Assembly: GCF_000510645.1 (NCBI RefSeq)
Contig: NZ_KI783301.1
Span: 2,084,420-2,148,419, forward strand
Direction: 5' to 3'
Source of the DNA: Thermicanus aegyptius DSM 12793
GTDB taxonomy: Bacteria; Bacillota; Bacilli; Thermicanales; Thermicanaceae
Length of the DNA stretch: 64,000 nt
Shown here in pieces: positions 47,314-62,245 of the stretch (position 1 is its first letter; each line of letters starts with the position of its first letter). The notes below the pieces were generated by a model. That model had not been told where the DNA came from, did not search any database, and was given only the letters and a program-made list of their open reading frames with translations. The translations under genes were made by a program, and so were the position numbers.

Positions 47314-47331
47314 TACCAAATCCTCCTTTTT

Positions 47332-47692: not shown

Positions 47693-47716
47693 CTTAAAAT
47701 GTGTTTTAAAAAAAAA

Positions 47717-47911
47717 CCACTTCTCTTAAAACAAAATTCGTTTTAAAAGAAATGGCTCTTATTTTTGAATTACTAATTCCTTTTGTTTTTCTTCTCCCTG
47801 TGTTAGGAGAAAAAAATAAAGAGAATTAACGTTCCTCTCCCCGGTGTGGGAAAAGAAATAAAAGAATAAATTATATATACTAATTCTACCTCATCTAATA
47901 TCTGTTTTCAA
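47717..47911 (-). promoter_or_regulatory. Array leader RNA element, copy a
   Basis: Minus strand order: promoter TTGAAA-N17-TAGAAT (47883-47911), stem-loop 1 (47832-47858, an 11-bp stem with TTTTCCC/GGGGAGAGG), stem-loop 2 (47786-47816, TTTCTCC/GGAGAAG), then a 16-bp intrinsic terminator (47717-47755: CCATTTCTTTTAAAAC with GTTTTAAGAGAAGTGG, then a T-run). The same layout recurs at 52616, 59232 and 62004. The genes behind it are D, C, B and A. Confidence 0.85.
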
Positions 47912-47938
47912 GCGAAATGTTTTTTTGAACGCTTCTTT

Positions 47939-48376
47939 TTATTTCCTCGTATTCCACTCAGTTAGGTTTGATTTATTCTTTTCTAAAATCCTGAGCATAT
48001 TGAACGGCTCTTTCAACAATGCCATCTCGCTGTTATGATTTATACTCTGCAAAACCCCGTTTTCATACCTTGAAAGGGTAGCATGACTCCATCCCAATGC
48101 TTTTGATAACTGTCGTTGGCTTAACCCGTACATTTCCCTAATCTGTTTTATTTCATCGGGAGTTAATAAATTCTTTCTCCTCCTATATTCGGAATACAAT
48201 CTGTCATAATTCCGTTCCTGCATTTTTCTGTCCGGAATGATTTTCTCACAGAGGTTGCACTTAAGATACTCAGCTTGAATAGTTATTTTCTCACCTCTTA
48301 CGTCATATGTTTTTTCTTTCAAAACTGGAACACATTCAGTGAAATTAAGACATTCCGGGCAAAATTTTTCTACCAT
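47939..48376 (-). CDS. MqsA-like zinc-finger / HTH protein
   Basis: A 145-aa protein: an N-terminal four-Cys zinc site (FCPECLNFTEC, then YLKCNLCEKIIP) as in MqsA/YgiT antitoxins, followed by a Cro/C1-type HTH (LTPDEIKQIREMYGLSQRQL, then GWSHATLSRYENG). MqsA-type proteins bind DNA and usually an adjacent toxin; no toxin gene is adjacent. It is the last gene of the transcription unit starting at 52790, so it may regulate the array itself. Weak ribosome binding site. Confidence 0.75.
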   Translation of the reverse strand: MVEKFCPECLNFTECVPVLKEKTYDVRGEKITIQAEYLKCNLCEKIIPDRKMQERNYDRLYSEYRRRKNLLTPDEIKQIREMYGLSQRQLSKALGWSHATLSRYENGVLQSINHNSEMALLKEPFNMLRILEKNKSNLTEWNTRK

Positions 48377-48394
48377 TTCGATCGCTCACATCTT

Positions 48395-49207
48395 TTAAAT
48401 CAAAGTCTGGATCATCAAAGCTTCGATCCTTTCCATTGCATCTTTTCCAGTAGGAACATGCCGTGCTCCGGTAAGATCCTTAAAAGCACCACCAGCACTA
48501 AAAGCATTTCCCTTATATTCTAATTTCCCAAATGGTGTATAAAGTAATTTTTTCCTTTTTTTCTTGGCAATCATCTCTTTGTCAATAATTTCTACTAAAA
48601 GCAAACAGGGGCTTTTAAAGTCTGAGGATTTTACGCCATCTTCTCTGAGGTCGCTTACATCAATGCCGCATTTTTTAGCTTTCCGCAAACTTTCCCTTAT
48701 CCGGCGGTGCAAAATATAATCCTTGATCTTTCGAAACCGCCTTTCTCCGTATATTCGTGACATATGATCGTTCCAAGGAAAAGTATTATCAATGTCCTTG
48801 GGTTGATAATCAAAAGGGAAAAAATTAAAGCCCCAAGGAAAATAATTAAATAAGAATTTTATATAATTTATTTCTTTAACAGAAATATTTTTACCTTCTC
48901 GAACCTTTTCTACAGGTTCTACAGTCAATAAAACATTCATAGATATTATATCTTTTCGGTGGATGAAATCAAATTCAGCGCACGTTCTTCGCTTTGCCCT
49001 TGCTGAATTACCATGTGCGCCTCTAACTCTCACTTTACGCGCACCTTCCTTTTGGATGATTTTCATGACTTCATCTACGTCATCAGTCGTAATTTCTAAT
49101 ATTTGTCGTTTTCGTTGTTCGCACTGAAATGCTTCCAGTTCATCAATTATTGCTTTCCGCACATCTTCAAGTTGAAAGCTCTTTGCCATGAAATCTTTCC
49201 ATGCCAT
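48395..49207 (-). CDS. Family 2 array protein, copy E (unrecognised)
   Basis: A 270-aa family member, one of the more divergent. N-terminal domain with MKIIQKEGARKVRVRGAHGN and AEFDFIHRKDIISMNVLL, middle with YILHRRIRESLRKAKKCGID, C-terminus with SPCLLLVEIIDKEMI, LLYTPFGKLEYKG, GARHVPTGKDAMERIEALMI and final QTLI (where others have QASI). ATG 49207 follows GGGGGAGATAAAG. Lies between the MqsA-like gene and copy F, all in one unit. Confidence 0.75.
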   Translation of the reverse strand: MAWKDFMAKSFQLEDVRKAIIDELEAFQCEQRKRQILEITTDDVDEVMKIIQKEGARKVRVRGAHGNSARAKRRTCAEFDFIHRKDIISMNVLLTVEPVEKVREGKNISVKEINYIKFLFNYFPWGFNFFPFDYQPKDIDNTFPWNDHMSRIYGERRFRKIKDYILHRRIRESLRKAKKCGIDVSDLREDGVKSSDFKSPCLLLVEIIDKEMIAKKKRKKLLYTPFGKLEYKGNAFSAGGAFKDLTGARHVPTGKDAMERIEALMIQTLI

Positions 49208-49255
49208 CTTTATCTCCCCCATTTTTTTAGTTTTTAGATTTTTAGTTTTTAGATT

Positions 49256-50068
49256 TTAAATCGAAGCTTGAATAAGCAGAGCTTCGATCTTTTTCATAGC
49301 ATCTTTTCCATAAGGAACTCGCCGCGCACCGGTGAGATCCCTAAATGCCGCACGCGCATCATAGATGCGGTTTTTACTCTCGAAATTTCCGAATGGTGTA
49401 TAAAGAATCAACCTTTCGGGAGGTCCATTGAAACCAATCAAAAGAAGACATGGTTCCTTAAAGTCTACAAACTTGATCCCGTCTAACAAGGGAATACCTT
49501 TAATTCTCCTTTTGATCTTTAAGGATTTTTTTAGTTCGCTTATGTCAATACCGGATTTTGCGGCTTTAAACAGCGTCTCTCTCTTCCATCTGAATATCAG
49601 ATAATCTCTTATTTTATTGGCGCGATTTGCACCCAACATATCCATCATCACGTCCCAGAAGTTCGAATCCCAGAAGTTCGAATTTTCGACAGTGAAGATA
49701 ATTTTTCTATTTAAATGGTATTGATTTCTGGAGACTCTTGTGGGCCATCCACCTTTGGAATTCAGAAATGCTTTAACTGCAAATCTTTCTTTTCGGCGAA
49801 CGAACCAGATATCAGCCCTCATCTTAATAAGATTTTGTCCGTTATCACATTTTCCGTAAATTGTTAAATGTCCGTTCTGGTTCTCTCGTATAATTTTAAT
49901 GATTTTGTTTATATCTTTATCCGTTATCGGGCAAACATTAAGTCCATCTTGATAAACGTTTAACTCTCGAATCAGTTTATCCCAGAATTCATTTAGTTGG
50001 GTGATTTTCCCTACGTACTTTATCTCCTCCGTTGTTTTGTTGGGGAATGGTACAGATTTAATAATCAT
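49256..50068 (-). CDS. Family 2 array protein, copy F (unrecognised)
   Basis: A 270-aa family member very similar to copy G: ITQLNEFWDKLIRELNVYQD, KIIKIIRENQNGHLTIYGKC, FVRRKERFAVKAFLNS, the two-residue signature ILYTPFGNFESKNRIYDARA, and the end GARRVPYGKDAMKKIEALLI. It shows a short internal duplication FWDSNFWD in the middle. AAAGGAGTTGAAAAG precedes the ATG. No catalytic motif recognised. Confidence 0.75.
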   Translation of the reverse strand: MIIKSVPFPNKTTEEIKYVGKITQLNEFWDKLIRELNVYQDGLNVCPITDKDINKIIKIIRENQNGHLTIYGKCDNGQNLIKMRADIWFVRRKERFAVKAFLNSKGGWPTRVSRNQYHLNRKIIFTVENSNFWDSNFWDVMMDMLGANRANKIRDYLIFRWKRETLFKAAKSGIDISELKKSLKIKRRIKGIPLLDGIKFVDFKEPCLLLIGFNGPPERLILYTPFGNFESKNRIYDARAAFRDLTGARRVPYGKDAMKKIEALLIQASI

Positions 50069-50149
50069 CTTTTCAACTCCTTTAAGATTCCACTAGGAGC
50101 TTTCGTAGATATTGATAAGCTCCTAGTTTCGTTTTTTTTATTTAATTTT

Positions 50150-50971
50150 TTAAATCGAAGCCTGGATCAGCAAAGCTTCGATCTTTTTTGTGGCATCTTT
50201 TCCACGCGGCACGCAACGGGCGCCTGTGATATGCCTAAATGCCACACGCGCATCATAGATGTGCTTTTTACTCTCGTAATTCCCAAATGGTGTATAGAGA
50301 ATCCATTTTTCGGTAGGCAGTTCAAAACCGATAAGAAGAAGACATGGTTCCTTGAAGTCGATAAACTTTATTACGTCTGATATGCGAACGTTGTCTTTAA
50401 TTCTCCTTTGGATCTTTAAGATTTTTTTTAATTCGCTTATGTCAATACCGGCTTTGGCTGCTTTAAAGAGCATCTCTCTTTTCTGCCTGAATAAAAGATA
50501 ATCGCTTATTTTGTTTATGCGTTTTACACCAAAGATTTTTTTCATCAAATATAAAAAGTCTTCATCATCTATGCTCCTAAATACATTGGATGTCAATAAA
50601 AGAGACAAATCAAAATGTTTATTTAAATATTTTTGACTTTGGGCAAATATTTCCGGCGATTTTATTTGGATAAATACTCGAACCGCAAATCTTTTTTTTC
50701 GGCGAATAAACCAGACTCCAACCCTAATCTTCCTAAGTTTTTCACAACCATTACTTTCACCATAAATAATTAAATGCCCATTCTGATTTTCCCGGATTAT
50801 TTCTATAATTTCTTTAACCTCTTTTTCCGTTATCCTGCAAACATCAGGTTTGTCTTGAAAAACGTTTATCTTTTGTATCAGCTCATCTCCGAACTCGTTG
50901 AGTTGAGATTCTTTTCCTACATATTCTATTTTCTCCCATGTTTTGTTAACAAATGCCTCTGATTTATTCAT
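50150..50971 (-). CDS. Family 2 array protein, copy G (unrecognised)
   Basis: A 273-aa family member, closest to copy F: KESQLNEFGDELIQKINVFQ, EIIRENQNGHLIIYGESNGC, WFIRRKKRFAVRVFI, YLLFRQKREMLFKAAKAGID, IKFIDFKEPCLLLIGFELP, GARCVPRGKDATKKIEALLI. The ATG at 50971 is supported by AAAGGAGTGAAAAA; the open frame to 51076 runs back into the end of the upstream gene and has no ribosome site. Confidence 0.75.
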   Translation of the reverse strand: MNKSEAFVNKTWEKIEYVGKESQLNEFGDELIQKINVFQDKPDVCRITEKEVKEIIEIIRENQNGHLIIYGESNGCEKLRKIRVGVWFIRRKKRFAVRVFIQIKSPEIFAQSQKYLNKHFDLSLLLTSNVFRSIDDEDFLYLMKKIFGVKRINKISDYLLFRQKREMLFKAAKAGIDISELKKILKIQRRIKDNVRISDVIKFIDFKEPCLLLIGFELPTEKWILYTPFGNYESKKHIYDARVAFRHITGARCVPRGKDATKKIEALLIQASI

Positions 50972-51044
50972 TTTTTCACTCCTTTTTTTTAAAAAAAATT
51001 CTATCAGGAGCTCCTGGAGATATCCAAGAGCCCTTACTTTTAAT

Positions 51045-51830
51045 TTAAATCGAAGCCTGAAGTAACAGGGCTTCAATTTTCTTCATGGCATCTTTTCCAT
51101 AAGGCACACGTTTGACATTGACTAACTCCCTAAACGCCTCTCGTGCATAGTGAATCTCCATACTGGCTTCGTATTTCCCGAAAGGAGTAAGAAGAATGTG
51201 CTTTTCGGGTGTGCCAACTAAAAGAAACGGTTCTTCAAAGTCGATAAATTCAATTCCAGATCTAATTTCGTCGTTAGATTCAATCTCAGGATGACACTTA
51301 TAAAAATAATCGGACTTCAAAACTTCTTTAAATTCGCCTACATCAATCCCACACTTAGATGCTTTAGTCAGTTTTTCTCTTTTTCTCCTGTATTCTAGAT
51401 AATTTTTTAATCTAACGAAACGTTCAGAATCAATCATCAAAATCAAAACATCTCTCAATTTCCAAATAAGATCCGGATCGATCGTTTTGGCCATTATTTT
51501 CTTTCTGGTACGCGATCTTACCAATGAACCTTCACTCCAACCGACTTCATTGTACCCGGAAACTTTTACAGCAACAATTCCTTTTCGGTGGATAAATCTA
51601 ATCTGAATAAATAGTTTGTCTTTTTGGTAATCTTTGCATTTACCAGTGATTGATATACGACCATACGATCTGTTTCGGATGATTTTAATTGCTTTTCGCA
51701 TATCAATTGACTGTATTTGGCATTGATATGTGTTTTTATAGTAAACTGCTAAATCTTTTAATATTTTTTCGCCTAAATCTTCTAACTCCGTTACTTTCAC
51801 AACGTGGTCTGTTTCTCTCAAACGGATCAT
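51045..51830 (-). CDS. Family 2 array protein, copy H (unrecognised)
   Basis: A 261-aa family member, closest to copy D: TELEDLGEKILKDLAVYYKN, KAIKIIRNRSYGRISITGKC, IQIRFIHRKGIVAVKVSGYN, LIWKLRDVLILMIDSERFVR, KASKCGIDVGEFKEVLKSDY, FIDFEEPFLLVGTPEKHILL and VPYGKDAMKKIEALLLQASI. GGAGGATTTGATA precedes the ATG at 51830. It follows a family 3 gene after 19 bases, exactly the order (family 3 then family 2) seen in the disrupted unit at 47.3 kb. Confidence 0.75.
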   Translation of the reverse strand: MIRLRETDHVVKVTELEDLGEKILKDLAVYYKNTYQCQIQSIDMRKAIKIIRNRSYGRISITGKCKDYQKDKLFIQIRFIHRKGIVAVKVSGYNEVGWSEGSLVRSRTRKKIMAKTIDPDLIWKLRDVLILMIDSERFVRLKNYLEYRRKREKLTKASKCGIDVGEFKEVLKSDYFYKCHPEIESNDEIRSGIEFIDFEEPFLLVGTPEKHILLTPFGKYEASMEIHYAREAFRELVNVKRVPYGKDAMKKIEALLLQASI

Positions 51831-51849
51831 TATCAAATCCTCCTTTTTT

Positions 51850-52473
51850 TTAAAGTTTTTCTAAAATTTTTTTCGCTTCAATTTCAGCTTTTAAGTCTAT
51901 CAAAAAAGAAATGATTCGGCGGAGCGTTTCATTTTTTTCTTCCGAATCTGCGAAATCATAAGAGTGGATATTATCACACAAGCGTTTCGCATGGAAGTAC
52001 ATATCCAAAGGGATGGGATCGGGGTATTCAGGCGTTTCGACTGTTCCTCCTTTATATCCATCGACCATTCCTTTGATGTGTCCGTCATTAACTATCCATT
52101 CCCCGAATACGGTTACCCCATATTCGAGTTGTGCAAGATTTCCTTCCCAAGAAACATCTTCTATCCGCATGAATATTTCGCCTTCTGTCGCAAAAGGTAT
52201 ATCTTTATATAGATTTGTTCTGAAAATTTGATATACCTTTCCTGTCCAACTACCGGTAAGAAGTTGCATTGATATTACATCTGCTGTTTTTATGGCTATT
52301 TTGCCCTGCCTGATCCACTCGCCATTATTTATACTGATGGCGATGTTTTTATGCTGAGGTCTCCATCCAGCTACAAATTCCCCATTTTGAAAACCTTCTA
52401 CTATCTTTTTGATCTTAAAATTTCTTTTGGGAAGATGAAGAATTAGTTCCAGGTTAGCTGCTTTGCCTCTCAT
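51850..52473 (-). CDS. Family 3 array protein, copy I (unrecognised)
   Basis: A 207-aa protein of a second unrecognised type; its paralogs are at 62302-62922 and the remnant at 47332. Blocks shared by the two full copies: an opening beta-rich segment ending KKIVEGFQNGEFVAGW, a IAISINNGEWIRQGKIAIKT / VISMQLLTGSWTGKV region, VSWEGNLAQLEYGVTVFGEW, then a helical end EETLRRII-type with AEAKKILEKL. Beta-rich front plus helical tail; no catalytic motif. First gene behind leader copy b, with AAGGAGGAATAAACA at its start. Confidence 0.72.
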   Translation of the reverse strand: MRGKAANLELILHLPKRNFKIKKIVEGFQNGEFVAGWRPQHKNIAISINNGEWIRQGKIAIKTADVISMQLLTGSWTGKVYQIFRTNLYKDIPFATEGEIFMRIEDVSWEGNLAQLEYGVTVFGEWIVNDGHIKGMVDGYKGGTVETPEYPDPIPLDMYFHAKRLCDNIHSYDFADSEEKNETLRRIISFLIDLKAEIEAKKILEKL

Positions 52474-52504
52474 TGTTTATTCCTCCTTTTTTTTTAAAAA
52501 AAAA

Positions 52505-52580
52505 TAAAATATTAAAGTTTAGGGCTGGGGAAGATGGCCAGCATCAGTTAGCGCGTATGATATTTTGGTATGCGCATACC
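52505..52580. repeat. Solo transposon-end-like sequence and GGTATGCGCATACC palindrome
   Basis: Plus strand TTTAGGGCTGGGGAAGATGG near 52515-52535 matches the right-end hairpin 3' half of the intact TnpB element (at 60410-60430). Next to it is GGTATGCGCATACC (52567-52580), a perfect 14-base palindrome whose 12-base core recurs at 62085-62096 in leader d. Confidence 0.5.
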
Positions 52581-52615
52581 ATCATCCTTAAAATATATTT
52601 TAAAAAATAAAAAAA

Positions 52616-52790
52616 CCACTCCTTTTAAAATAGAAACGTTTTAAAAGAAATGGCTTTTGTTTTTTCTTCTCCTTGTGTTAGGGGAAGAAAAGTGGGATTT
52701 AGCGATCTTCTCCCGGTTATAGGAGATGATTATTAGAAGAATTAAATAAACCGTTATTATTAATATACTTTACCGGACTTTTACCGTCAA
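52616..52790 (-). promoter_or_regulatory. Array leader RNA element, copy b
   Basis: Promoter TTGACG-N17-TATATT (52762-52790), stem-loop 1 (52706-52728, TCTCC/GGAGA), stem-loop 2 (52665-52689, TTCTTC/GAAGAA with inner CC/GG), then the terminator (52616-52653: CCATTTCTTTTAAAA with TTTTAAAAGGAGTGG, T-run). It drives family 3 copy I, family 2 copies H, G, F, E and the MqsA-like gene. Confidence 0.85.
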
Positions 52791-52813
52791 GTTTTTTTTT
52801 TAAGAAAACCTCT

Positions 52814-52875
52814 TGAGAAAAAAGAAATGCGACATTCCTCCCCAGCCTACTAAGACTAGAGATTTCTGCCGCATT
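52814..52875 (-). terminator. Terminator after copy J
   Basis: AATGCGGCA pairs with TGTCGCATT (one mismatch) around a long loop, followed on the minus strand by TTCTTTTTTCTC. It separates the copy J unit from leader b. Confidence 0.7.
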
Positions 52876-52898
52876 AAGATGATTATTAATTATATTAA

Positions 52899-53684
52899 TT
52901 ATAACGAAGCCTGAAGCAACAAGGCTTCAATTTTCTTTAGTGCATTTTTACCCGATGGCATACGGTTGATATTAACAAATTTTTTAAATGCCTCCCGAGC
53001 ACTGGTAGTATTACGGTTAACGTTATGCTTCCCGAAAGGGGTGTAAAGGATGTTATTTCTATAACCTCCCACCAAAAGAAACGGCTCTTCGAAGTTTATA
53101 AAAGTAATTTCTTTTTCTTCGGGAAAATAACCATCAAGAAAATATTTCTTTAGATTCTCTTTTAGATTCTCTTTTATTTCGCTAACATCAATTCCCCATT
53201 TGGCCGCTTTAAACAATTCCTCCCTCATTATACGATATGCAAGATATATTCTAAGCCTATGGAAGCGATCATAACCAAGCATCAATTCCACAACGTCTTT
53301 TAATTTGTAATTATAAAATAGATCCGTGTATATTTTATTTCCTATAATTTTCTTTCTTACAAAGAAAGTTTTTCGCGTGAGTATACTTCGCACGTAATCA
53401 ACATCTATGCGCACTTTCAATGCAACTTTCCCCTTCCTGTTGATAAAGTCGATCTTCATAAACAGAGTCTTTTTTTGATTAACATCACATTTGGGTTGGA
53501 CTGAAAAACGCCCGTATGCATTTCTACTGATGATTTCTATAGCTTTCTGTATATCCTCAGATGTGAATTTACAAATATCGGCATTTCTCTCGTGGTTTGA
53601 TAAATCTTTTAACATTTTTTTACCAAAATTATCTAGTTCGTTGACCGGAATAACTTTTTTGATTTTATTTACAAAACGAATCAT
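52899..53684 (-). CDS. Family 2 array protein, copy J (unrecognised)
   Basis: A 261-aa family member: VNELDNFGKKMLKDLSNHER, KAIEIISRNAYGRFSVQPKC, MKIDFINRKGKVALKVRIDV, LKDVVELMLGYDRFHRLRIY, ELFKAAKWGIDVSEIKENLK (a 12-base tandem duplication gives ENLKENLKK), FINFEEPFLLVGGYRNNILY and MPSGKNALKKIEALLLQASL. GAAAGGAGTATATTCT precedes the ATG. Last gene of the unit containing K, L and M. Confidence 0.75.
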   Translation of the reverse strand: MIRFVNKIKKVIPVNELDNFGKKMLKDLSNHERNADICKFTSEDIQKAIEIISRNAYGRFSVQPKCDVNQKKTLFMKIDFINRKGKVALKVRIDVDYVRSILTRKTFFVRKKIIGNKIYTDLFYNYKLKDVVELMLGYDRFHRLRIYLAYRIMREELFKAAKWGIDVSEIKENLKENLKKYFLDGYFPEEKEITFINFEEPFLLVGGYRNNILYTPFGKHNVNRNTTSAREAFKKFVNINRMPSGKNALKKIEALLLQASL

Positions 53685-53718
53685 AGAATATACTCCTTTC
53701 TTTTTTTATTTAAGTATA

Positions 53719-53766
53719 GGCACGTTCCGTCTGATACATCTTAAGATGTATAGAATGGAACGTGCC
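53719..53766. repeat. Two-part hairpin with 18-base palindrome
   Basis: GGCACGTTCC/GGAACGTGCC arms enclose the perfect palindrome ATACATCTTAAGATGTAT (53734-53751). It lies between copies K and J. On the minus strand no T-run follows, so an RNA processing or stability element, or a DNA cruciform, is more likely than a leftward terminator. Confidence 0.7.
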
Positions 53767-53791
53767 CATTTCATTTTTTTAGATCTTTTTT

Positions 53792-54532
53792 TTAGATCTT
53801 TGTCATCGTTAATATCGCGGCGATTTCTTCCGGTGTTTCAGGTATTTTTTCCCCGGTTGCATTCTTAAATATTTCTTCTATTTTTCTCTCCGCAGGAAAA
53901 ATCCATCCTTCAAACCGGAACGAACCATACGGCTTTGGGAGAATAAAATACATGACATATTTTCCGTTATTTATTTCTGATCCCCTTATTACCACTAGCG
54001 GACAGCCGCGACGGCATATGGCGGTTTCAATCAGGAAATCGTTACGATGGAACGGAAGAACGAATTCCCATTGTTTTAAAACATTGCGGATCTTTTCCCT
54101 AACTTTACGGAAAAAGATATATCGAATGACCCTTATTTGCCTTTTGAGCCCCACGAAGCACTCGTATAACGACATGATGTCGCAGTCATTATAGGAGATC
54201 AAAGGGAGTTCCTTGAATCTCCGGCGAGTGATCACGCCATGCGAACACACATTTTTTCGCGTTACTTTGACGCACACTGCCGTTTTCTCTTTCCGACGAA
54301 GGAAGGCGAACTGAACGAACGTTGAAACTGCACGGTATTTGTATGCGGTAGAAACCGCCCCGCCGATAAGTTCAATTTTTCCGCTTTGATGTTTTTTCAT
54401 TTTTTCGATGGCCCATTCGACATCTGCTTCGTCCAAAAGACGCACTCGGGCGCGCTTTTGGACTTGGTTTATGGAATCCATCAGGTCTGTTTTAATTTGG
54501 CTTAGATTATCGTATATGCTTTTATATTCCAT
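53792..54532 (-). CDS. Divergent family 2 relative, copy K (unrecognised)
   Basis: A 246-aa protein with the family 2 N-terminal pattern (DEADVEWAIEKMKKHQSGKI, then VQFAFLRRKEKTAVCVKVTR) and a middle RYIFFRKVREKIRNVLKQWE. The C-terminal half is replaced by a different one: LVVIRGSEINNGKYVMYFIL, PKPYGSFRFEGWIFPAERKI, EEIFKNATGEKIPETPEEIA and end ILTMTKI. It shares the layout (ATP-less, basic, cytoplasmic) but not the GKDAMKKIEALL tail. Confidence 0.65.
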   Translation of the reverse strand: MEYKSIYDNLSQIKTDLMDSINQVQKRARVRLLDEADVEWAIEKMKKHQSGKIELIGGAVSTAYKYRAVSTFVQFAFLRRKEKTAVCVKVTRKNVCSHGVITRRRFKELPLISYNDCDIMSLYECFVGLKRQIRVIRYIFFRKVREKIRNVLKQWEFVLPFHRNDFLIETAICRRGCPLVVIRGSEINNGKYVMYFILPKPYGSFRFEGWIFPAERKIEEIFKNATGEKIPETPEEIAAILTMTKI

Positions 54533-54556
54533 TTTTTTCTAATCCCCTTTCTTTTT

Positions 54557-55234
54557 TCACGACATCAAAGCCATGACCAAAGCCGCTTCGACAGCTTCTT
54601 CGTCATCAGAAAGATCCATGCCGGTTAAACTCAGGAAAAGTTTTTTTGGATCATCAACAAGCATCGACATTCCTATTTCTCCGCGTTTCGGAAGTTCATA
54701 AACTTTTCCCGAACGCAATACAACAATCGGTCGCAAATCATGCCATATTTCTTCGCTTTCTTTGTTGACTTTTTTTAAAATGATCGCGCACGCTTCAGAT
54801 ATCGAAATCTGGTCTCTCCGAAATTTCAACATTCCTTCGTATCCCATTTTTCGCACGTAATCTCTGTATTCTCTAAACTGAATATACAAATAAATTTTAA
54901 ACTCTCGTTCGTCATCGGTTACCAGCTTGTGATGTGACGTTTGTTTCATCACTATCGTTTTATATTTCTGGGGAACTGTTTTCGAAAAGATAGAGCAAAC
55001 ATATGAACCCCAACGCTTACGGTATTCAACTTTGATTTCGTTTTGATCAAGCGGTAAATATACACGCGCCGAATCATGGCGAAACAACCAACGAAGGCGC
55101 AAACGAAGACCTAAAGCCCGCAAAGAGTACGGCTTGGCATAGCCAATATTATAGGCCATCCTCATAATAGATTCGTTAATTTCCTTCTTACTCTGCATGT
55201 TTCGTAGATATGAACCATGACAATCTTTCGTCAT
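54557..55234 (-). CDS. Array-associated protein L (unrecognised)
   Basis: A 225-aa basic protein. No family recognised. Visible segments: ALGLRLRLRWLFRHDSARVY, YKTIVMKQTSHHKLVTDDER, YRDYVRKMGYEGMLKFRRDQ, and a C-terminal KKLFLSLTGMDLSDDEEAVE with end AALVMALMS that echoes the family 2 end (TG, then an acidic helix, then a short hydrophobic tail). ATG 55234 follows AAAAAGGAGGTAAAAAA. Confidence 0.65.
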   Translation of the reverse strand: MTKDCHGSYLRNMQSKKEINESIMRMAYNIGYAKPYSLRALGLRLRLRWLFRHDSARVYLPLDQNEIKVEYRKRWGSYVCSIFSKTVPQKYKTIVMKQTSHHKLVTDDEREFKIYLYIQFREYRDYVRKMGYEGMLKFRRDQISISEACAIILKKVNKESEEIWHDLRPIVVLRSGKVYELPKRGEIGMSMLVDDPKKLFLSLTGMDLSDDEEAVEAALVMALMS

Positions 55235-55271
55235 TTTTTTTACCTCCTTTTTCTTCTTTTTAAACAAGGTT

Positions 55272-55619
55272 CTAAATCGAGGCCTGAAGCAATAAGGCTT
55301 CGATTTTCTTCATTGCGTCTTTTCCACGAGGAATTCTCTTGGCCCCGGTGATTTCTTTAAAAATGCGTCTAGGGCTACAATCCAACTTATTTTTAAGTTC
55401 AAATACCGCAAATGGCGTATAAAAAAGACACTTATTCTGATATCTCATCCAATTGAATTGCAGTAAAAGAAAGCAGGGTTCTTCAAAAACTATATAATCT
55501 ATTTCATGGTATTTTTTTTCAAGACTGCTCACTTCGATCCCATGTTTGCGAGCCTTGTCTAACGTGTTTAAAACAAAAGAGTGTAGATAGAGAGTGTCAT
55601 CGCGATAGAAAAATTCCAC
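55272..55619 (-). CDS. Family 2 half-gene, copy M (C-terminal domain only)
   Basis: A 115-aa protein equal to the last third of family 2: LNTLDKARKHGIEVSSLEKK, YIVFEEPCFLLLQFNWMRYQ, LFYTPFAVFELKNKL, GAKRIPRGKDAMKKIEALLL and final QASI. The N-terminal and middle domains are absent, and the gene begins with a GTG after GGAGAAAGAA. Either a deletion product or evidence that the C-terminal domain folds and works alone. Confidence 0.65.
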   Translation of the reverse strand: MEFFYRDDTLYLHSFVLNTLDKARKHGIEVSSLEKKYHEIDYIVFEEPCFLLLQFNWMRYQNKCLFYTPFAVFELKNKLDCSPRRIFKEITGAKRIPRGKDAMKKIEALLLQASI

Positions 55620-55654
55620 TTCTTTCTCCGCCTTCCTCTCTTTAAGAAGAATAA

Positions 55655-55682
55655 AAGGACAGACCGAGGCCCGTCCTTTTTA
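55655..55682 (-). terminator. Terminator after the VWA gene
   Basis: AAAAGGAC pairs with GTCCTTTT, followed on the minus strand by TTATTCTTC. It overlaps the end of the VWA-protein coding sequence. Confidence 0.75.
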
Positions 55683-57008
55683 TTCAATCTTCACTTTTTT
55701 CGCCCATGCCGGTACATTCGCCCACACATCTTTATTAGGACGAATAATACCTACCACCATTGGGACGGGAAGGGGTTGATCCGGCCAAGGAGTTAAACCG
55801 TCGGTCAAGACAACAATTACGTCCGGTCTGGGCCGAAGCTTAGCCGCCGCTTTGGCCGATTCCCCCATGTCCGTTCCTCCTCCACCGCGGGCATCTTTCA
55901 ACGCGCGACGGAAAGCTGATTTACTGCTGTCCGTAATCTTATGCGCACCGTATGCCGCCGCGTCAGCATATACCAATGATAAATCCGCAAACTTAAGAAG
56001 CCCCTGGACTTCACTCAAAAGCTCCTCGAGCTCTCTGTCGGATACGCTACCGCTGGTATCTACTACAACCGCAACATTTGGACGGCGCCGGATCATCCCG
56101 GGAAGCAGGTATTCTGTCGTCCGGATTCGGCGGTTCGGTCGCTGTAAGGAATAATCCTCCGCACCGCTTTTCGTCGCACCCGAACGAATGAGATTTCGCA
56201 GCATGAGCCTCCAATCCACTTTCGGAGGCTCAAGGACAGTTTCTACCCACCGGATCAACCCGCCGGGCACGTCTCCACGCCCCTTTGCCGCTTCTGCAAT
56301 TGCGTGGGCAACCTCCCTTCGGATCACCTCAAGCCGTCCGGGGGTAAGTTTCCCTTCCGATTCGGCATTCTCCCAAGGGGCAGTGCGACCGGTTGCGGCG
56401 GAACCGCTCACCCCAGCCCCTGGTTTCGCCCCTCCAGTGCTGGCTGGGCTGGAAGATTGGTCTCCTTGGTCTACCGACTGACCTCCACCTTGCTGACTTC
56501 CACCTTGCCCCGAGGTGCCGCCAGATTGATTTCCGGATTGACCCCCCTCTTGTCCAGAGGTGCCGTTGGATTGATTTCCGCCATTACGCAAAATGGCGTT
56601 TTTCATAATCCATTCGGCGTACTCCTCTGCCAAGAGATTCTTCGGGAATCCGAAGGGCTCAGGAAAGAGGGCTTCCTTTCCGTCGATCTCAGGGAGTTGA
56701 AAACCATCTTCTCTGAGAATCTGGTTGATTTCCAGATCCCCCGCAATATTTGCCACTTCATGCGGGTATTCTTTGAGCCGTACGAAGTGGACCTGCAAAA
56801 GATGAAGGATTTCGTGGTAAAGTACCGCCGAAATCTCTTCTGTTGTCCATTTTTCGACGTTCTTAGAGTAATAAAGAACACCCGTTTCCGATACCGCCAT
56901 CGTTTCTACGGTTTCACTCTCTATAGGGAGGAGAGAGTATACTGCCGAAGCAAAGTACGGACGTTTTTTTAGCAGTCTAAAAATGGCTGCGTCTAATTTT
57001 AAATTCAT
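55680..57008 (-). CDS. Metallopeptidase-like / VWA-domain protein (DUF2201 type)
   Basis: A 442-aa protein. The N-terminal domain (residues about 1-150) has a HExxH zinc motif in YHEILHLLQVHFVR. A disordered linker (about 155-215) is rich in Gly, Gln and Ser. The C-terminal von Willebrand A domain (about 300-440) has the MIDAS loop VVVDTSGSVSDRELEELL, GGGGTDMGESAKAA and VVLTDGLTPWP. Such proteins commonly accompany a MoxR ATPase, as here three genes away, and the pair is proposed to remodel a protein or insert a metal. Its DNA is visibly richer in G+C than the family 2 genes beside it. Confidence 0.85.
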   Translation of the reverse strand: MNLKLDAAIFRLLKKRPYFASAVYSLLPIESETVETMAVSETGVLYYSKNVEKWTTEEISAVLYHEILHLLQVHFVRLKEYPHEVANIAGDLEINQILREDGFQLPEIDGKEALFPEPFGFPKNLLAEEYAEWIMKNAILRNGGNQSNGTSGQEGGQSGNQSGGTSGQGGSQQGGGQSVDQGDQSSSPASTGGAKPGAGVSGSAATGRTAPWENAESEGKLTPGRLEVIRREVAHAIAEAAKGRGDVPGGLIRWVETVLEPPKVDWRLMLRNLIRSGATKSGAEDYSLQRPNRRIRTTEYLLPGMIRRRPNVAVVVDTSGSVSDRELEELLSEVQGLLKFADLSLVYADAAAYGAHKITDSSKSAFRRALKDARGGGGTDMGESAKAAAKLRPRPDVIVVLTDGLTPWPDQPLPVPMVVGIIRPNKDVWANVPAWAKKVKIE

Positions 57009-57090
57009 TCTTATCCTCCTTTTTTGTGTATTCGGGTTTTATGATTGAAATAGACGAATCATTTTCCAGTTAAAATTCATAAATTTAATT

Positions 57091-57384
57091 TCACAAGTCG
57101 CCAGTTTCAATAAATACGTTCAATGCATTGACCAATTCCTTCGCTTGTTTTCTTGTCAAATGCATCCTTGTATAAAGCATTACATCGTCGGGGATGTCGT
57201 ATCGCACCCAACCAGTTCCACCTTGAGGTGTCTTGCTTGCCATAATCTTCGGGTCTGCATCATCGACACCTAACCAAATAGCATCTTCAGTCGCCAATGA
57301 TGATTTTTGCAAGGAGCATTTTACCCCGTACAAATCAGTAAAACTAATGATTGTGAATCCTCTGTTCGTTACGCTTTTTTCCAT
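57091..57384 (-). CDS. Conserved hypothetical protein of phage/plasmid type
   Basis: A 97-aa protein with the recurring phrase FTDLYGVKCSLQKSSLATED, IWLGVDDADPKIMA and RMHLTRKQAKELVNAL, ending FIETGDL. I recall this pattern from many phage and mobile-element genomes, where it has no assigned function; it is a recognition from memory, not a search. GGGAGATGTTTGTA precedes the ATG at 57384. Confidence 0.6.
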   Translation of the reverse strand: MEKSVTNRGFTIISFTDLYGVKCSLQKSSLATEDAIWLGVDDADPKIMASKTPQGGTGWVRYDIPDDVMLYTRMHLTRKQAKELVNALNVFIETGDL

Positions 57385-57490
57385 TACAAACATCTCCCTG
57401 CCACGTTTTATTAGATACCATATTCTGGTTATTATGGATGCTCGAATTTTCATTCCGACTCAATAATCGAAATAGCATATTTTTAAAATC

Positions 57491-57520
57491 AAAAGCCCCC
57501 GTTTTCGAGGGCTTTTTTTG
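57491..57520 (-). terminator. Terminator after the MoxR gene
   Basis: AAAAGCCCTCG pairs with CGGGGGCTTTT around a short A-rich loop; flanked by T/A runs in both directions. Confidence 0.8.
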
Positions 57521-58633
57521 TTAATTCATCATCCCGGCTTCTTTTAGAAGGGGGACGAATTTTTGGAGGTGCGGAAGGATGTCTTTGAGATGTTTGTTCA
57601 TTTCAGACTTTAGATTCCCTTCCGCCTTTGACTGCCAGGCTTTCAAAGCCTGTGCACCTGAAGCCCCGATAGCAGGGCTTCCTTGCTCAGCGGTTCTCCC
57701 TAAAACCTCCCATGCGGCCATCCAGGACTTAATATTGTTATGCCGGATTGCCGCAGCGACAACCGAGTTTACGATCGCATAATCCCGATCGCCTCGCCCG
57801 GTAAGATGGAATGTCTTCGGATCGCGGAGAAACTGATCGGGATCGGGGAGATCCACCTCCCTTACGAAAGTGAAAAATTCCAGCGCAGTTCCGCGCCCAA
57901 CGGCGCCGGATGCCGCGACAAGCATTTCGTCTTCACCCATCTCGGCGGCTTCCAATGCCGCTAAGGCAGGCACTAGAAGCGACGCCCAAGATCGCGGCGT
58001 AGGAAACGAAGGAAACGCCGGATTTTCAATTTTTGTTTTTGAAAGGAGGTCGGGACGGCGTTTGATAAAAGCGGACACAAGGGCGTTGTACTTTCCTTTG
58101 CCTGCTTCCCATCCTTCCGGCAACACGGGCGGACGATAAAAAAATCCGCTCATGATTCCGTCGGCAAACTCGCTTGCGTCCATGTTCCACTCGACATGAA
58201 CAAAGCGGTTCGCCATAGGTGGGTCGAGCTCGTAACCGCCAACAGCTTGATCCGGGGGGTTTGCTGCCGCCACGACACGAACGTCGGTGGGAAGCTGCAT
58301 GTCTCCCAGCCTCTTATTCAGCACCAATTGTAGGAGTGGCGCCTGTACGGCTGGAGGGACGGTTGTAAGCTCGTCCACGAAGACAATTCCCTTCCCCTTT
58401 TCAATGAATTCTTTCGCCCACGCCAACGGGGCGTGGCGGGTGAATTCCCCTTCGAGCCGTGGAAGACCCATTACATCTGTCGGGTCCATAGAGGACCCAA
58501 TGAGGGTCTTTACGGGGATTCCAAATTCCTCCCCGAGACTTTCCACGAAACTAGATTTTCCGACGCCCGGTTCTCCCCACAGGAGAACCGGGATGTTGGC
58601 CTGCAAAAGAATAGAAACAAGATTCTTTTTCAT
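57521..58633 (-). CDS. MoxR-type AAA+ ATPase
   Basis: A 370-aa ATPase of the MoxR/AAA_5 class: Walker A LLWGEPGVGKSSFVE, Walker B GIVFVDELTTVP, sensor-1 VRVVAAANPPDQAVGGYELD, arginine finger region NRFVHVEWN, then a helical lid. MoxR ATPases act as chaperones that assemble or metallate protein complexes with a VWA partner; the partner candidate is the gene at 55680. AAAAAAAGGAGGATTTAA precedes the ATG, the same start signal as the rest of the array. Confidence 0.9.
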   Translation of the reverse strand: MKKNLVSILLQANIPVLLWGEPGVGKSSFVESLGEEFGIPVKTLIGSSMDPTDVMGLPRLEGEFTRHAPLAWAKEFIEKGKGIVFVDELTTVPPAVQAPLLQLVLNKRLGDMQLPTDVRVVAAANPPDQAVGGYELDPPMANRFVHVEWNMDASEFADGIMSGFFYRPPVLPEGWEAGKGKYNALVSAFIKRRPDLLSKTKIENPAFPSFPTPRSWASLLVPALAALEAAEMGEDEMLVAASGAVGRGTALEFFTFVREVDLPDPDQFLRDPKTFHLTGRGDRDYAIVNSVVAAAIRHNNIKSWMAAWEVLGRTAEQGSPAIGASGAQALKAWQSKAEGNLKSEMNKHLKDILPHLQKFVPLLKEAGMMN

Positions 58634-58653
58634 TTAAATCCTCCTTTTTTTAT

Positions 58654-59175
58654 TTAAATTTTCATCATAATCTCCCTGGCTCGGGAGATTTTTTCAATAT
58701 TTTCTTTTAACCCGGACGTTACTCCGGGCTGTTTCCAATCCTCAAAATCACCATCCGAGACGGCTAAACGAATTCCCTCTTGCACCATCGCGGGGTATTC
58801 GTTTACCATCTCAGCAACAATCGGGACGAAATCCCCTAGCCAACCGGTGAAAATGATGTCCCAATTTAGCCTCTCATACATCGAGACGTGAATCACGCCT
58901 CCTGTACGAAAATAGCCGAAGTTTTCATCCTCCAAGTAACGGAGCCTGAAATCTTTGGCTCCGCTTAACCCTCTATGGACGGTGATTTTCCAGGGATTAA
59001 TCCTTCCCCGGTGAAGCTTTTCCCCTTCTTTTTTCCAATCCGGATAAGCCGCATCCATGATTGGAAATAGAAGAGTTACATCGGGGGATTTTCCCCCGAG
59101 CTTTTTGATAAGGAGTCTATCATTGTCAATAGAGACTCCAACAGACCCCTCTCCATAAAAAACTATTTTTTTCAT
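58654..59175 (-). CDS. Leader-c first gene, unrecognised protein Q
   Basis: About 173 aa, no family recognised: YGEGSVGVSIDNDRLLIKKL, TLLFPIMDAAYPDWKKEG, LSGAKDFRLRYLEDENFGYF, DIIFTGWLGDFVPIVAEMVN and a helical end SRAREIMMKI. The ATG at 59175 is not directly behind a ribosome site: AAGGAGG lies about 30 bases upstream with a small hairpin (GGCGC-TTCAA-GCGTCC) between, so the start could be upstream (the frame is open to 59238). It is directly behind leader c and in front of the MoxR gene. Confidence 0.55.
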   Translation of the reverse strand: MKKIVFYGEGSVGVSIDNDRLLIKKLGGKSPDVTLLFPIMDAAYPDWKKEGEKLHRGRINPWKITVHRGLSGAKDFRLRYLEDENFGYFRTGGVIHVSMYERLNWDIIFTGWLGDFVPIVAEMVNEYPAMVQEGIRLAVSDGDFEDWKQPGVTSGLKENIEKISRAREIMMKI

Positions 59176-59231
59176 TTTTTTGGGACGCTTGAAGCGCCAC
59201 TTCACCTCCTTTTTTTTTAAAAAAATAAAAA

Positions 59232-59428
59232 AAGCCACTCCTCTTAAAACAAAATGCGTTTTAAAAGAAATGGCTTTTGTTTTTTTACACTAAAATGAAC
59301 TTTGTTTTTCCTCTCTCTGTAATGAGAGAAGAAAAGAAATGAATGACTATCCTCTCCTCGAATGGGAGAAGAAAAAAATGGTCTAAATCCTATACTTTAA
59401 TTTTATTATATTAGTTAGCTGTTGTCAA
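59232..59428 (-). promoter_or_regulatory. Array leader RNA element, copy c
   Basis: Promoter TTGACA-N17-TAAAAT (59400-59428), stem-loop 1 (59350-59372, TCTTCTCC/GGAGAGGA), stem-loop 2 (59308-59333, TTCTTCTCTC/GAGAGAGGAA), terminator (59232-59276: AAGCCATTTCTTTTAAAAC with GTTTTAAGAGGAGTGGCTT, T-run). It drives gene Q and the MoxR gene. Confidence 0.87.
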
Positions 59429-59449
59429 ACAAAAAAGAGCAAATAGCTC
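59429..59449 (-). terminator. Terminator after copy R
   Basis: GGGAGC-TATTT-GCTC on the minus strand followed by TTTTTTG; it sits directly upstream of leader c. Confidence 0.75.
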
Positions 59450-59490
59450 CCGGAAAGTTATGGTTATTTATTTTTTTTAAACAACTTTTT

Positions 59491-60237
59491 CTATAACGAA
59501 GCTTGGAGCAACAGAGCTTCGATTTTTTTCATAGCATTTTTGCCGTATGGTACACGACGGGCTCCTGTTACTATTAAGAAAGCATTTCTTGCGTCTTTTG
59601 TGAATCTTTTTATTTCAAATTTTCCATACGGTGTATGAAGAATCCGCTTTGTGATTGTACTAACTAAAAGGAAACACGGTTCTTTAAAATCAACTAAGTG
59701 CTTTTCTCTAATGTTTGCTCTCAATTCGTCTACTTCAATACCGCATTTTGCGGCTTTTAACAACATTTCCCTTCTCTTTCTGTACGATAGATAATTTCTG
59801 ATTTCTTCTGAGCGTCGTAATCCCATTACATCTCCTATAACTTCCCACATATCTTCAAAGGATTTTCTATTTGTAAAGAAAACGGTTCGATTTACGCACA
59901 ATCCTTCAAAGATGTAAAAGTACGCTCTTACCCCAATTTTCCTCTTCCGTCGAAAAAACTTAAAATCTACGTTTACCATTTTGATAATCTTTCCTTTATC
60001 TTCCTTACCACATTTTCCTAATATTTTTACATATCCGTGAGTATTTTCCCGAAAGATGTTCATTACTTTGTCTACATCTTTTGGCATAATACGACGAACA
60101 TCGGTTTCAGTCTGGTAAGCGTTTAATTCTCTAAAAGTTACAGTCTGGTAGGCATTTAATTCTCTGAGCAAGTCTTCACGAAATTCATTAAGCTGTGAAA
60201 TATCACCGACAAATTTCAGTATCCTCCATGTTCCCAT
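59491..60237 (-). CDS. Family 2 array protein, copy R (unrecognised)
   Basis: A 248-aa family member: GDISQLNEFREDLLRELNAY, VNVDFKFFRRKRKIGVRAYF, YLSYRKRREMLLKAAKCGIE, HLVDFKEPCFLLVSTITKRI, LHTPYGKFEIKRFTKDARNA, GARRVPYGKNAMKKIEALLL, QASL. A perfect 33-base tandem duplication repeats ELNAYQT near residue 25. ATG 60237 follows GGAGGGATTAAAA. It is the only full family 2 copy right of leader c, separated from gene T by an inserted TnpB element. Confidence 0.75.
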   Translation of the reverse strand: MGTWRILKFVGDISQLNEFREDLLRELNAYQTVTFRELNAYQTETDVRRIMPKDVDKVMNIFRENTHGYVKILGKCGKEDKGKIIKMVNVDFKFFRRKRKIGVRAYFYIFEGLCVNRTVFFTNRKSFEDMWEVIGDVMGLRRSEEIRNYLSYRKRREMLLKAAKCGIEVDELRANIREKHLVDFKEPCFLLVSTITKRILHTPYGKFEIKRFTKDARNAFLIVTGARRVPYGKNAMKKIEALLLQASL

Positions 60238-60265
60238 TTTTAATCCCTCCATTTTTTTAAAGAAA

Positions 60266-60285
60266 ACAGGGACTTTCGCCCCTGT
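60266..60285 (-). terminator. Hairpin upstream of copy R
   Basis: ACAGGGGC-GAAA-GTCCCTGT (one G-T pair) with a GAAA tetraloop, followed on the minus strand by TTTTCTTT. Probably a terminator for transcription arriving from the TnpB element. Confidence 0.7.
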
Positions 60286-60409
60286 ACTGTTGTAATAAAA
60301 TAATCAGGGTGGTTTCTGATTGTTCCTTCGAATAATCTTGTGAATTGCATGATGCTATCCCTGAACATTTTACTCTAACCCGTGTTATACTTTAAGTGGT
60401 TGACGTTCT

Positions 60410-61654
60410 CCCCAGCCCTAAAGGGCGGGGATTCTTTCTCGCTTATCACGAGCTACACCACATATGCGGCTGATACCGCACACCGATGGGGGACGCCATT
60501 ACCCCAACTACTGGGCCTAAGCCCAGATACTTGCGCCGGATATTGATTGCACCAACGCCATCCCGATGGTAGGAAAAACCGCATGTGCACTTGAACTCCC
60601 TGCCTTTCGGTTTGTGTCTAACCCCACATACCGGACATTCCTGTGAAGTGTAGGATTCATCCTGCAATACGGTTTTTAACCCTAACCTTTCGGCTTTGTA
60701 TTGGATGAAGTATCTTGTCTTCCCAAAAGCCCATTGGTGCAGTTTCTGGTTTGCGACCGACCCATAATCAATATCCTTCCGAATATCCCGCACATCTCCG
60801 ATCACTACCGTCTGAATCCCTTCTCGATACAGGATTGAGACAAGTTTGGTAGTCTCTTTGTGCAGAATATCATGGATTTGGTTTCTTATCTTTGCAAGCT
60901 GTTTCGCCTTCGAGCGAATCAATCTCCTCCAGCGACGAGAACCTTTCTTTTTCTTGTCGATTTTGCTTTGCAAAAAAGCTTTTAACTTGTTTTGGTATCT
61001 TCGTTTCGATCTAAGAAGCCTGCCGTTAAAGATATAGCTTTGCTCCCCATTATAAACAGCTGCGATATGAATTTCGCCCAAATCAATTCCTGCCGTTTTA
61101 TCGCCTTGAGTCTGTTTTAGATTTGGCTCATTCAGATATGTCGCTCTTAATTCGTATTGTTTTCCATCCCAACCGATTTCGACAAGTTTCGGCTTTTCGA
61201 ATTGCCACGGCAAAACAAGCGGGTTATTTCCTTTTCCGTTGGAAAGATAAAGAAGTCCATCTTTGATCCGGATGGCATCTTCTTTCCATTGGATTCGAAA
61301 ATATCGTCTACGTCGTTTTGGTGGCTTTGCTTTTAAATCCGTTTTTCTTCGTTCTCTCCATGATTTCAGCGAAGCAAAGAAAGTTTGAACGATGGCTTGC
61401 GTCGATTGAGAGTGTAGATTCCGATTCTTAACCATTTTCATCATCGCATTCGGACTCAGCCATATTCCTTTTTTCCGAACAACACGCCAGAATCCTACCA
61501 ATACTTTCGTGTAGGTTTCTCCGGCGTTCCTAGCAAGATTATCTAACTCTTTGGTTTTCCCTATTTTTAACTTCCTAACAATATACATTTTTACACCTCC
61601 TTTCGTGGCAGGCGCCTTATATCCCCAGCCCTAAAGGGCGGGGCTTTACGGCGC
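60410..61654 (-). mobile_element. Intact IS200/IS605-type TnpB element
   Basis: It is delimited by matching GC-rich hairpins: left CCCCGCCCTTTAGGGCTGGGG (61623-61643) enclosed by outer arms GCGCC/GGCGC (61611-61654), and right the same 21-base hairpin at 60410-60430. No tnpA lies in it. The right hairpin marks the end of the guide (omega) RNA scaffold; the guide would be the flank just below 60410. It is inserted in the 3' end of gene T. Confidence 0.8.
60446..61588 (-). CDS. tnpB: TnpB RNA-guided nuclease with atypical RuvC-II
   Basis: A 380-aa TnpB. RuvC-I Asp is in DKTAGIDLGEIHIAAV. At the usual RuvC-II Glu position it reads VVIGDVRDIRKDIDYGS (Gly-Asp instead of Glu-Asp). RuvC-III Asp is in YHRDGVGAINI. 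The zinc ribbon has ECPVCGVRHKPKGREFKCTC. A possible alternative catalytic Glu is in LQDESYTSQECPVC, as reported for the TnpB clade that gave rise to Fanzors (recalled). It would make guided DNA cuts that favour retention of the element. GAAAGGAGGTGTAAAA precedes the ATG. Confidence 0.92.
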   Translation of the reverse strand: MYIVRKLKIGKTKELDNLARNAGETYTKVLVGFWRVVRKKGIWLSPNAMMKMVKNRNLHSQSTQAIVQTFFASLKSWRERRKTDLKAKPPKRRRRYFRIQWKEDAIRIKDGLLYLSNGKGNNPLVLPWQFEKPKLVEIGWDGKQYELRATYLNEPNLKQTQGDKTAGIDLGEIHIAAVYNGEQSYIFNGRLLRSKRRYQNKLKAFLQSKIDKKKKGSRRWRRLIRSKAKQLAKIRNQIHDILHKETTKLVSILYREGIQTVVIGDVRDIRKDIDYGSVANQKLHQWAFGKTRYFIQYKAERLGLKTVLQDESYTSQECPVCGVRHKPKGREFKCTCGFSYHRDGVGAINIRRKYLGLGPVVGVMASPIGVRYQPHMWCSS

Positions 61655-61965
61655 ATTTGGTAAAGGTGAGAAAGTTTAACCTCAACATTCTCGTATCCAT
61701 CCGGCAACATATGGGTATCTTTTCCGTAGCCAAATGTTCCCGGTACCCTTAGCTCTTCGTCCCGCGGTGAAATCAAATGCCCGTCGGGTGTTTTTACCAT
61801 GGTAGCTGTTTCGTTTTGATACTTTTCCAGATACTCTCCTTCAACTTCAAAGAATTCCAGGAATTCCCTTGGGCAATCCTCCCCGTTGTTTTCCTGATAG
61901 GGGGCAAGTAGAGTTTTTACCTGATCCGGAGACTTAGAGATAACCGCAACCTTAAAATGACTCAT
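61591..61965 (-). CDS. Phage-type small protein T, 3' end replaced by transposon
   Basis: A 124-aa protein opening MSHFKVAVISKSPDQVKTLL and continuing APYQENNGEDCPREFLEFFE, a pattern I recall from many phage genomes (no known function). The last ~20 codons (RRKAPPFRAGDIRRLPRKEV) are read from the left end of the inserted TnpB element, so the native C-terminus has been lost. AAAAAAAGGAGAGATGTTAG precedes the ATG. First gene behind leader d. Confidence 0.65.
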   Translation of the reverse strand: MSHFKVAVISKSPDQVKTLLAPYQENNGEDCPREFLEFFEVEGEYLEKYQNETATMVKTPDGHLISPRDEELRVPGTFGYGKDTHMLPDGYENVEVKLSHLYQMRRKAPPFRAGDIRRLPRKEV

Positions 61966-62003
61966 CTAACATCTCTCCTTTTTTTGAATTTTAAATATAA
62001 AAA

Positions 62004-62245
62004 GGCGATTCCCGCCTTTAGCAGAAATCGCCATTTTCAACACAATAAGGGTCTAAACTATCAGACCCGTTTTTACAAAAAAAAGTATGCGCATACCACC
62101 GTGTTTGTGGTATTTCTATAATTCCTTCTCCCGGTGGTGGAAGAAGGAAAGGTTACACTATTATCCTCTCCCTGTGATGGGAGAAGAAGAATTAGAGCTC
62201 AAACTACTGTAGTATTATTATAATCTTTCTCAACTTATATTGCAA
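62004..62245 (-). promoter_or_regulatory. Array leader RNA element, copy d
   Basis: Promoter TTGCAA-N17-TATAAT (62217-62245), stem-loop 1 (62163-62188, TTCTTCTCCC/GGGAGAGGA), stem-loop 2 (62121-62148, CCTTCTTCC/GGGAGAAGG), palindrome GTATGCGCATAC (62085-62096), a hairpin GGGTCT/AGACCC (62048-62069) and a final terminator GGCGATT/AATCGCC with TTTTTATATTT (62004-62032). Same layout as copies a-c with a different terminator stem. Confidence 0.82.

Follow-up and report, generated by a model that had tools for sequence, protein, structure and literature searches.

How genes come to be expressed when an intrinsic terminator stands between them and their promoter is the question raised by the 64,000-nt stretch of Thermicanus aegyptius DSM 12793 analyzed here (contig NZ_KI783301.1, positions 2,084,420 to 2,148,419; hereafter, the window). 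A sequence-only reading had described four leaders in it, each with a promoter of 17-base spacer, two stem-loops, and a terminator before a gene. All of them were found in place on the minus strand, in the order sigma-A promoter, two tandem hairpins at the 5' end of the transcript, intrinsic terminator, and gene, with the downstream genes on the same strand (Table 1). Our results support well a functional RNA with covarying stems before terminators, for which processive antitermination is the best explanation. More specifically, we propose, with a probability slightly above one half, that these leaders are the antitermination sites of a 130-kb mobile element, acting processively through a NusG paralog that would be recruited by the hairpins.

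Structure and distribution of the tandem-hairpin leaders

The promoter of leader 3 matched the consensus at 11 of 12 positions and those of leaders 1, 2, and 4 at 10 of 12 each, and they ranked among the best promoter matches of a 20-kb stretch. A first alignment (A1) of seven copies, three of them from outside the window, was used to build a covariance model. In the 3.66-Mb genome, this model detected nine copies, which are all encoded on the minus strand, lie between genome positions 2132195 and 2233307, and fall inside one 130-kb element. Two of these were absent from the training set (81 bits, E 2e-16; 51 bits, E 1e-8), and the top match outside the element reached 22 bits. Looking for repeated intergenic sequence without any model recovered the same nine copies. 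The set of four sites was thus real but not complete, as five more copies lie beyond the window. The geometry was uniform over the nine, with the tandem block beginning at about +4 to +18, both hairpins within the first ~100 nt of the transcript, and the terminator ending at +145–162 or +196–208.

Pairing was kept in 96% of the cells of the nine-copy alignment, a value that is somewhat favored by the fitting of this alignment to the structure of the model; when the partner was slid by 1–3 columns as a control, pairing fell to only 65–74%. The earlier claim that the stems keep pairing while their bases change was borne out, since 10 of 20 pairs showed compensatory changes on both sides, compared with 2.9 in shuffles (none of 500 as high). 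In addition, each tandem block alone folded 3.6–5.6 standard deviations below shuffled sequences. The stems are simple and nearly bulge-free, their arms are rich in GAG/GGA, and the two hairpins are separated by ~20 nt. The GAG/GGA content could suggest binding of a TRAP- or CsrA-like type. The loop of hairpin 2 reads A-N-Y-A-C-N in the nine copies, and hairpin 1 loops are five or six bases long, a few of them reading AUUCG.

Two kinds of terminator were found among the nine leaders: a 20-bp AT-rich stem in four of them (class I) and a GGCGATTTCTGC stem in the other five (class II), in which two extra hairpins stand ahead of the terminator stem. Copies are nearly identical within each class. 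The terminators at 47.7, 52.6, and 59.2 kb do have one stem in common, as proposed from the sequence, although this is of 20 bp and not 16 bp, and the fourth terminator of the window is of the other type. Over the region from 44 to 64 kb, 42 terminator-like sites were counted, against 18 ± 4.6 in shuffles. As a separate observation, the palindrome TATGCGCATA occurs nine times in the element, five of them in class II leaders, and is absent from 69 kb of flanking host DNA.

Folding predicted that hairpins and terminator form together with near-full probability in all nine leaders, and withholding the 3' arm of the terminator revealed neither an alternative antiterminator nor re-pairing of hairpin 2. 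Hairpins and terminators are therefore predicted to fold independently, which argues against classical attenuation by mutually exclusive terminator and antiterminator structures. Attenuation by a leader peptide was also rejected, as the leaders contain no conserved ORF.

To look for further members, the covariance model was run on samples of a few hundred genomes from the class, the larger of which numbered about 400, and an exact-pattern scan, which does not reach diverged copies, was applied to about 85,000 genomes and the viral contigs. No tandem-hairpin leader was found in other genomes by either approach. Conservation beyond the window, which the sequence-only reading had set as a check, thus holds for the five additional copies but only within the same mobile element. 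Matches of 28–34 bits in other genomes (R1 model; L041–L046) corresponded to single hairpins or unrelated stems, and the sole match of the pattern scan (Chloroflexi, L047) was a GC-rich palindromic repeat.

The element, its NusG paralog, and related elements

The end of the window falls within a 130-kb insertion that splits comM, the N-terminal part of this gene being found 130 kb from its C-terminal part and adjoining a serine recombinase. Both junctions (genome positions 2127283 and 2257339, the latter outside the window) carry a 10-bp repeat, TGTCCGTGCG. This is a predicted integrative conjugative element inserted in comM: TraG/VirD4-like coupling proteins and a TraG P-loop ATPase (VirB4-like) exceeded their cut-offs, and a weak relaxase candidate (Replic_Relax) scored 23.2 bits, slightly under its cut-off of 25.3. 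Among the other products of the element are RecT, an ImmR/ImmA-like pair, primases, and restriction systems. A simple ORF call assigned 123 of its 141 genes to the minus strand; where neighboring genes point the same way, strong terminators between them are far commoner on this coding strand than on the other. We count such a terminator-rich coding strand, as in the pLS20 operon (PMC8955417), in favor of antitermination.

A Pfam NusG search of the genome gave two matches, the host gene and a paralog of 231 aa within the element, in which the NusG N-terminal domain (PF02357) scored 30–31 bits (cut-off 22.2). The profile of the paralog family matched solved NusG structures (E 1e-7). No KOW domain was among the Pfam hits of the paralog, whose C-terminal half consists of a conserved LLHxANT..KAF.R.K region, and it failed the LoaP family model NF033641 (26.2 bits against a cut-off of 125). 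Relatives were detected in 10 of 399 sampled genomes of the class, a relative being also present on a Brevibacillus marinus plasmid that belongs to one of these ten. They have in common the NusG N-terminal domain, the LLHxANT motif, the KAF.R.K region, and the lack of KOW. A RecD-like helicase gene directly follows the nusG paralog in all ten relatives, the same pair being found in this element, and the conjugation backbone is largely common to those relatives with enough flanking DNA for comparison. Just upstream of the paralog, the element also carries genes for tRNA-Glu, tRNA-Ile(TAT), and tRNA-Trp in a row.

In two genomes with related elements (G268 and G286), we found three copies each of an unrelated structured leader of ~200 nt that ends in an intrinsic terminator, with compensatory changes in 12 of 41 predicted pairs, partial copies in a third genome, and no Rfam match. 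In both genomes alike, one copy precedes the ortholog of recT and another that of a 294-aa DUF6744 gene, and both of these genes follow tandem-hairpin leaders in the T. aegyptius element. The third copy precedes a gene of 82 aa in the vicinity of the ortholog of a 180-aa gene that here follows a tandem-hairpin leader. Between these elements, the RNA thus differs although the position and architecture of the leader are kept, in support of a role in the elements' own expression programme. Separately, the motif TTGACAAT..TGGNARAAG occurs three times near promoters on the B. marinus plasmid; it is possibly a recruitment signal of the NusG paralog of that plasmid and was not tied to the tandem-hairpin system.

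Proposed processive antitermination and its alternatives

The leaders present what processive antitermination generally calls for, a promoter-near element upstream of terminators that need to be bypassed. In the mechanism that we infer, a strong terminator at about +145 to +208 would by default keep the gene group behind each of the nine promoters silent. Upon induction of the element, the main operon, located beside the ImmR/ImmA-like genes, would produce the NusG paralog, which would recognize the tandem hairpins as they emerge from RNA polymerase, most likely through the A-N-Y-A-C-N hexaloop of hairpin 2. The paralog would then replace or add to host NusG, and the polymerase so modified would run past the terminator of the leader and past those farther along the operon.

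LoaP, a NusG paralog of Gram-positive bacteria, depends for its action on a hairpin in the leader together with an intrinsic terminator, and its dfn/mln leader in Bacillus velezensis resembles our case in the NusG-domain protein, the small leader hairpin, the terminator before the first gene, and the additional terminators inside the operon (PMC12691694). However, the target of LoaP is one hairpin with a UNCG loop, in contrast to the two hairpins found here, the second with its hexaloop, and the present paralog scores below the LoaP cut-off, lacks KOW, and belongs to a conjugative element. The conAn system of the conjugative plasmid pLS20 likewise acts in conjugation operons of Bacilli that are rich in terminators, and its two parts, a protein and an RNA, are encoded by the element itself (PMC8955417), but it is present once, at the start of the operon, whereas the tandem-hairpin leader appears nine times; in pLS20, no NusG homolog was found above the cut-off.

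Three observations weigh against the proposed mechanism. Searches of the relatives that carry the paralog did not turn up the tandem hairpin, and the proposed match of protein with RNA therefore has a single element behind it. In addition, the main operon that includes the nusG paralog contains internal terminators, yet its own promoter lacks a tandem-hairpin leader. Finally, the paralog lacks a KOW domain in its C-terminal part, and the AlphaFold model made from its sequence alone was too poor for use (pLDDT 53).

Among the alternatives, a non-processive one, in which an RNA-binding protein of the element or the host would act on the hairpins to modulate only the leader terminator or RNA stability, is unlikely but survives best. 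The leaders indeed resemble the ANTAR targets of eut and nas, with two tandem hairpins whose hexaloops start with A, placed before terminators and repeated several times per regulon (PMC3369931). Nevertheless, ANTAR hexaloops need A1 and G4 in both hairpins, and here hairpin 2 has A at positions 1 and 4 in 9/9 copies; moreover, hairpin 2 of ANTAR targets excludes the terminator, whereas here hairpin 2 does not overlap it and both form. A search of the genome for the ANTAR domain (PF03861) found none, although the control genomes gave no match either.

Marginally less likely still is antitermination by RNA only, of the type of HK022 put, EAR, or canT of Tn916, in which the hairpins would bind polymerase in cis and the paralog would do something else. 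As in putL, an RNA of ~70 nt, two stem-loops stand right behind the promoter, and here they are found in cis at every controlled operon; the two stem-loops of putL/putR suppress terminators in cis (PMC9378689). Similarly, canT shows that Gram-positive elements can use RNA-only antiterminators, in this case in an integrative conjugative element with terminators insulating its genes, but it is a single RNA region of ~450 nt with no protein factor known (PMC11658703). The put RNA has been described as a bulged, stacked two-stem RNA that binds the beta' zinc-binding domain. This compact fold, present in two copies in a phage of E. coli and independent of a trans factor (PMC9378689), differs from our simple stems. 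Furthermore, bypass without a trans factor would be constitutive, so that nine terminators so close to their promoters would serve no purpose except if their sole task were to block upstream transcription, and the element does encode a NusG paralog. The simple stems ~20 nt apart, the conserved hexaloop, and the paralog are thus better accommodated by a protein-assisted scheme, LoaP- or N-like; of the sequence-only reading, the functional RNA and antitermination stand, and its analogy with put is not the best fit.

An improbable alternative is that the hairpins serve RNA stability or processing, that the terminators only insulate against transcription from upstream, and that regulation takes place at initiation alone. 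The leader promoters are good sigma-A sites, and Tn916 does have insulator terminators (PMC11658703), but here the terminators stand behind the promoters and would block their own transcripts, and no second promoter was noticed past a leader terminator, although no systematic search for one was made. A functionless repeat spread by recombination, which the near-identical terminators within each class could suggest, is very improbable given the same order and strand of promoter, hairpins, terminator, and gene in the nine copies and stems that covary while their sequence drifts.

The two-hairpin RNA is new: the window gave 0 Rfam matches at gathering score and nothing credible in a permissive search, and the defining features of LoaP, conAn, ANTAR, and put are only partly present. 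If recruitment of the NusG paralog is confirmed, the few antitermination systems known in Gram-positive bacteria, among them LoaP, EAR, conAn, and canT, would be joined by one that acts at multiple sites and for which the small RNA target is defined, a protein candidate is at hand, and the gene neighborhood is conserved. It would also explain how cargo and transfer genes are kept silent in large integrated elements and how many gene groups are switched on by one factor. With nine naturally occurring versions of the RNA and ten or more of the protein, recruitment of NusG paralogs by RNA, as opposed to DNA for RfaH, could be studied. More tentatively, a family of KOW-less NusG paralogs in large conjugative elements of Bacilli may run element-wide processive antitermination with fast-evolving, element-specific leader RNAs, the tandem hairpins in this case and the multi-stem leader of ~200 nt in relatives, placed in part ahead of orthologous genes. 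Paralog and leader RNA would then coevolve as exclusive pairs, insulating the gene expression of each element against both the host and rival elements.

Coordinates and neighboring features

Table 1. Positions of the leaders and other features (window numbering unless a genome position or a locus, L, is given).
Feature	Position	Strand	Remarks
Leader 1, promoter	47883..47911	-	TTGAAA-17-TAGAAT
Leader 1, hairpin 1	47832..47857	-	loop ACACCG
Leader 1, hairpin 2	47787..47816	-	hexaloop AACACA
Leader 1, intrinsic terminator	47708..47759	-	class I
Leader 1, first gene	46561..47319	-	252 aa, member of seven-copy paralog array
Leader 2, promoter	52762..52790	-	TTGACG-17-TATATT
Leader 2, hairpin 1	52705..52730	-	loop AUAACC
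Leader 2, hairpin 2	52662..52691	-	hexaloop AACACA
Leader 2, terminator	52603..52658	-	class I
Leader 2, first gene	51850..52473	-	207 aa, no assigned function
Leader 3, promoter	59400..59428	-	TTGACA-17-TAAAAT
Leader 3, hairpin 1	59350..59373	-	
Leader 3, hairpin 2	59306..59335	-	hexaloop AUUACA
Leader 3, terminator	59219..59277	-	class I
Leader 3, first gene	58654..59238	-	194-aa ORF from GTG overlapping terminator
Leader 4, promoter	62217..62245	-	TTGCAA-17-TATAAT
Leader 4, hairpin 1	62164..62188	-	loop AUCACA
Leader 4, hairpin 2	62122..62150	-	hexaloop ACCACC
Leader 4, terminator	61999..62032	-	class II; hairpins with TATGCGCATA and GGGTCTGA..TTAGACCC ahead of terminator
Leader 4, first gene	61591..61965	-	124 aa
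comM 3' part	42397..42863	-	Mg_chelatase_C
Left att core	42864..42873		10-bp repeat, TGTCCGTGCG (minus-strand reading)
NusG paralog	genome 2248019-2248714	-	231 aa
Palindrome TATGCGCATA	genome 2136988, 2146505, 2154085, 2167442, 2173874, 2210709, 2214610, 2233197, 2241888		
Main-operon hairpins	genome 2244229, 2243888, 2236072, 2222904, 2210847		
~200-nt leader copies	L084:2997-3196, L082:5551-5742, L083:18436-18635, L077:13834-14035, L080:18681-18879, L080:11287-11489	-	
B. marinus plasmid motif	L063:21193-21219, 30193-30219, 38825-38851	-	TTGACAAT..TGGNARAAG
Paralog array	46561-47319, 48395-53684, 59491-60252	-	seven paralogs
tRNA-Glu, tRNA-Ile(TAT), tRNA-Trp	L019:5289-5534	-	
tnpB genes	60446-61588; L019:10121-11593	-; +	IS605-type
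rtcB	63443-63991		RNA ligase

The true start of the first gene behind leader 3 probably lies further in than the GTG, and MoxR-like and VWA/DUF2201 genes come after it. The array consists of seven paralogs of ~250–310 aa with a conserved C-terminus, PYGKDAMKKIEALLIQAS, for which no relatives were found in the phages, plasmids, viral contigs, and genome contigs searched. Between genes of the main operon, there are five near-identical hairpins of the type CGCTTTG-TCC-AAAA-GA--A-AG-G, four of them followed by a T-run. In addition, the element carries two IS605-type TnpB genes and a gene encoding an RtcB RNA ligase.

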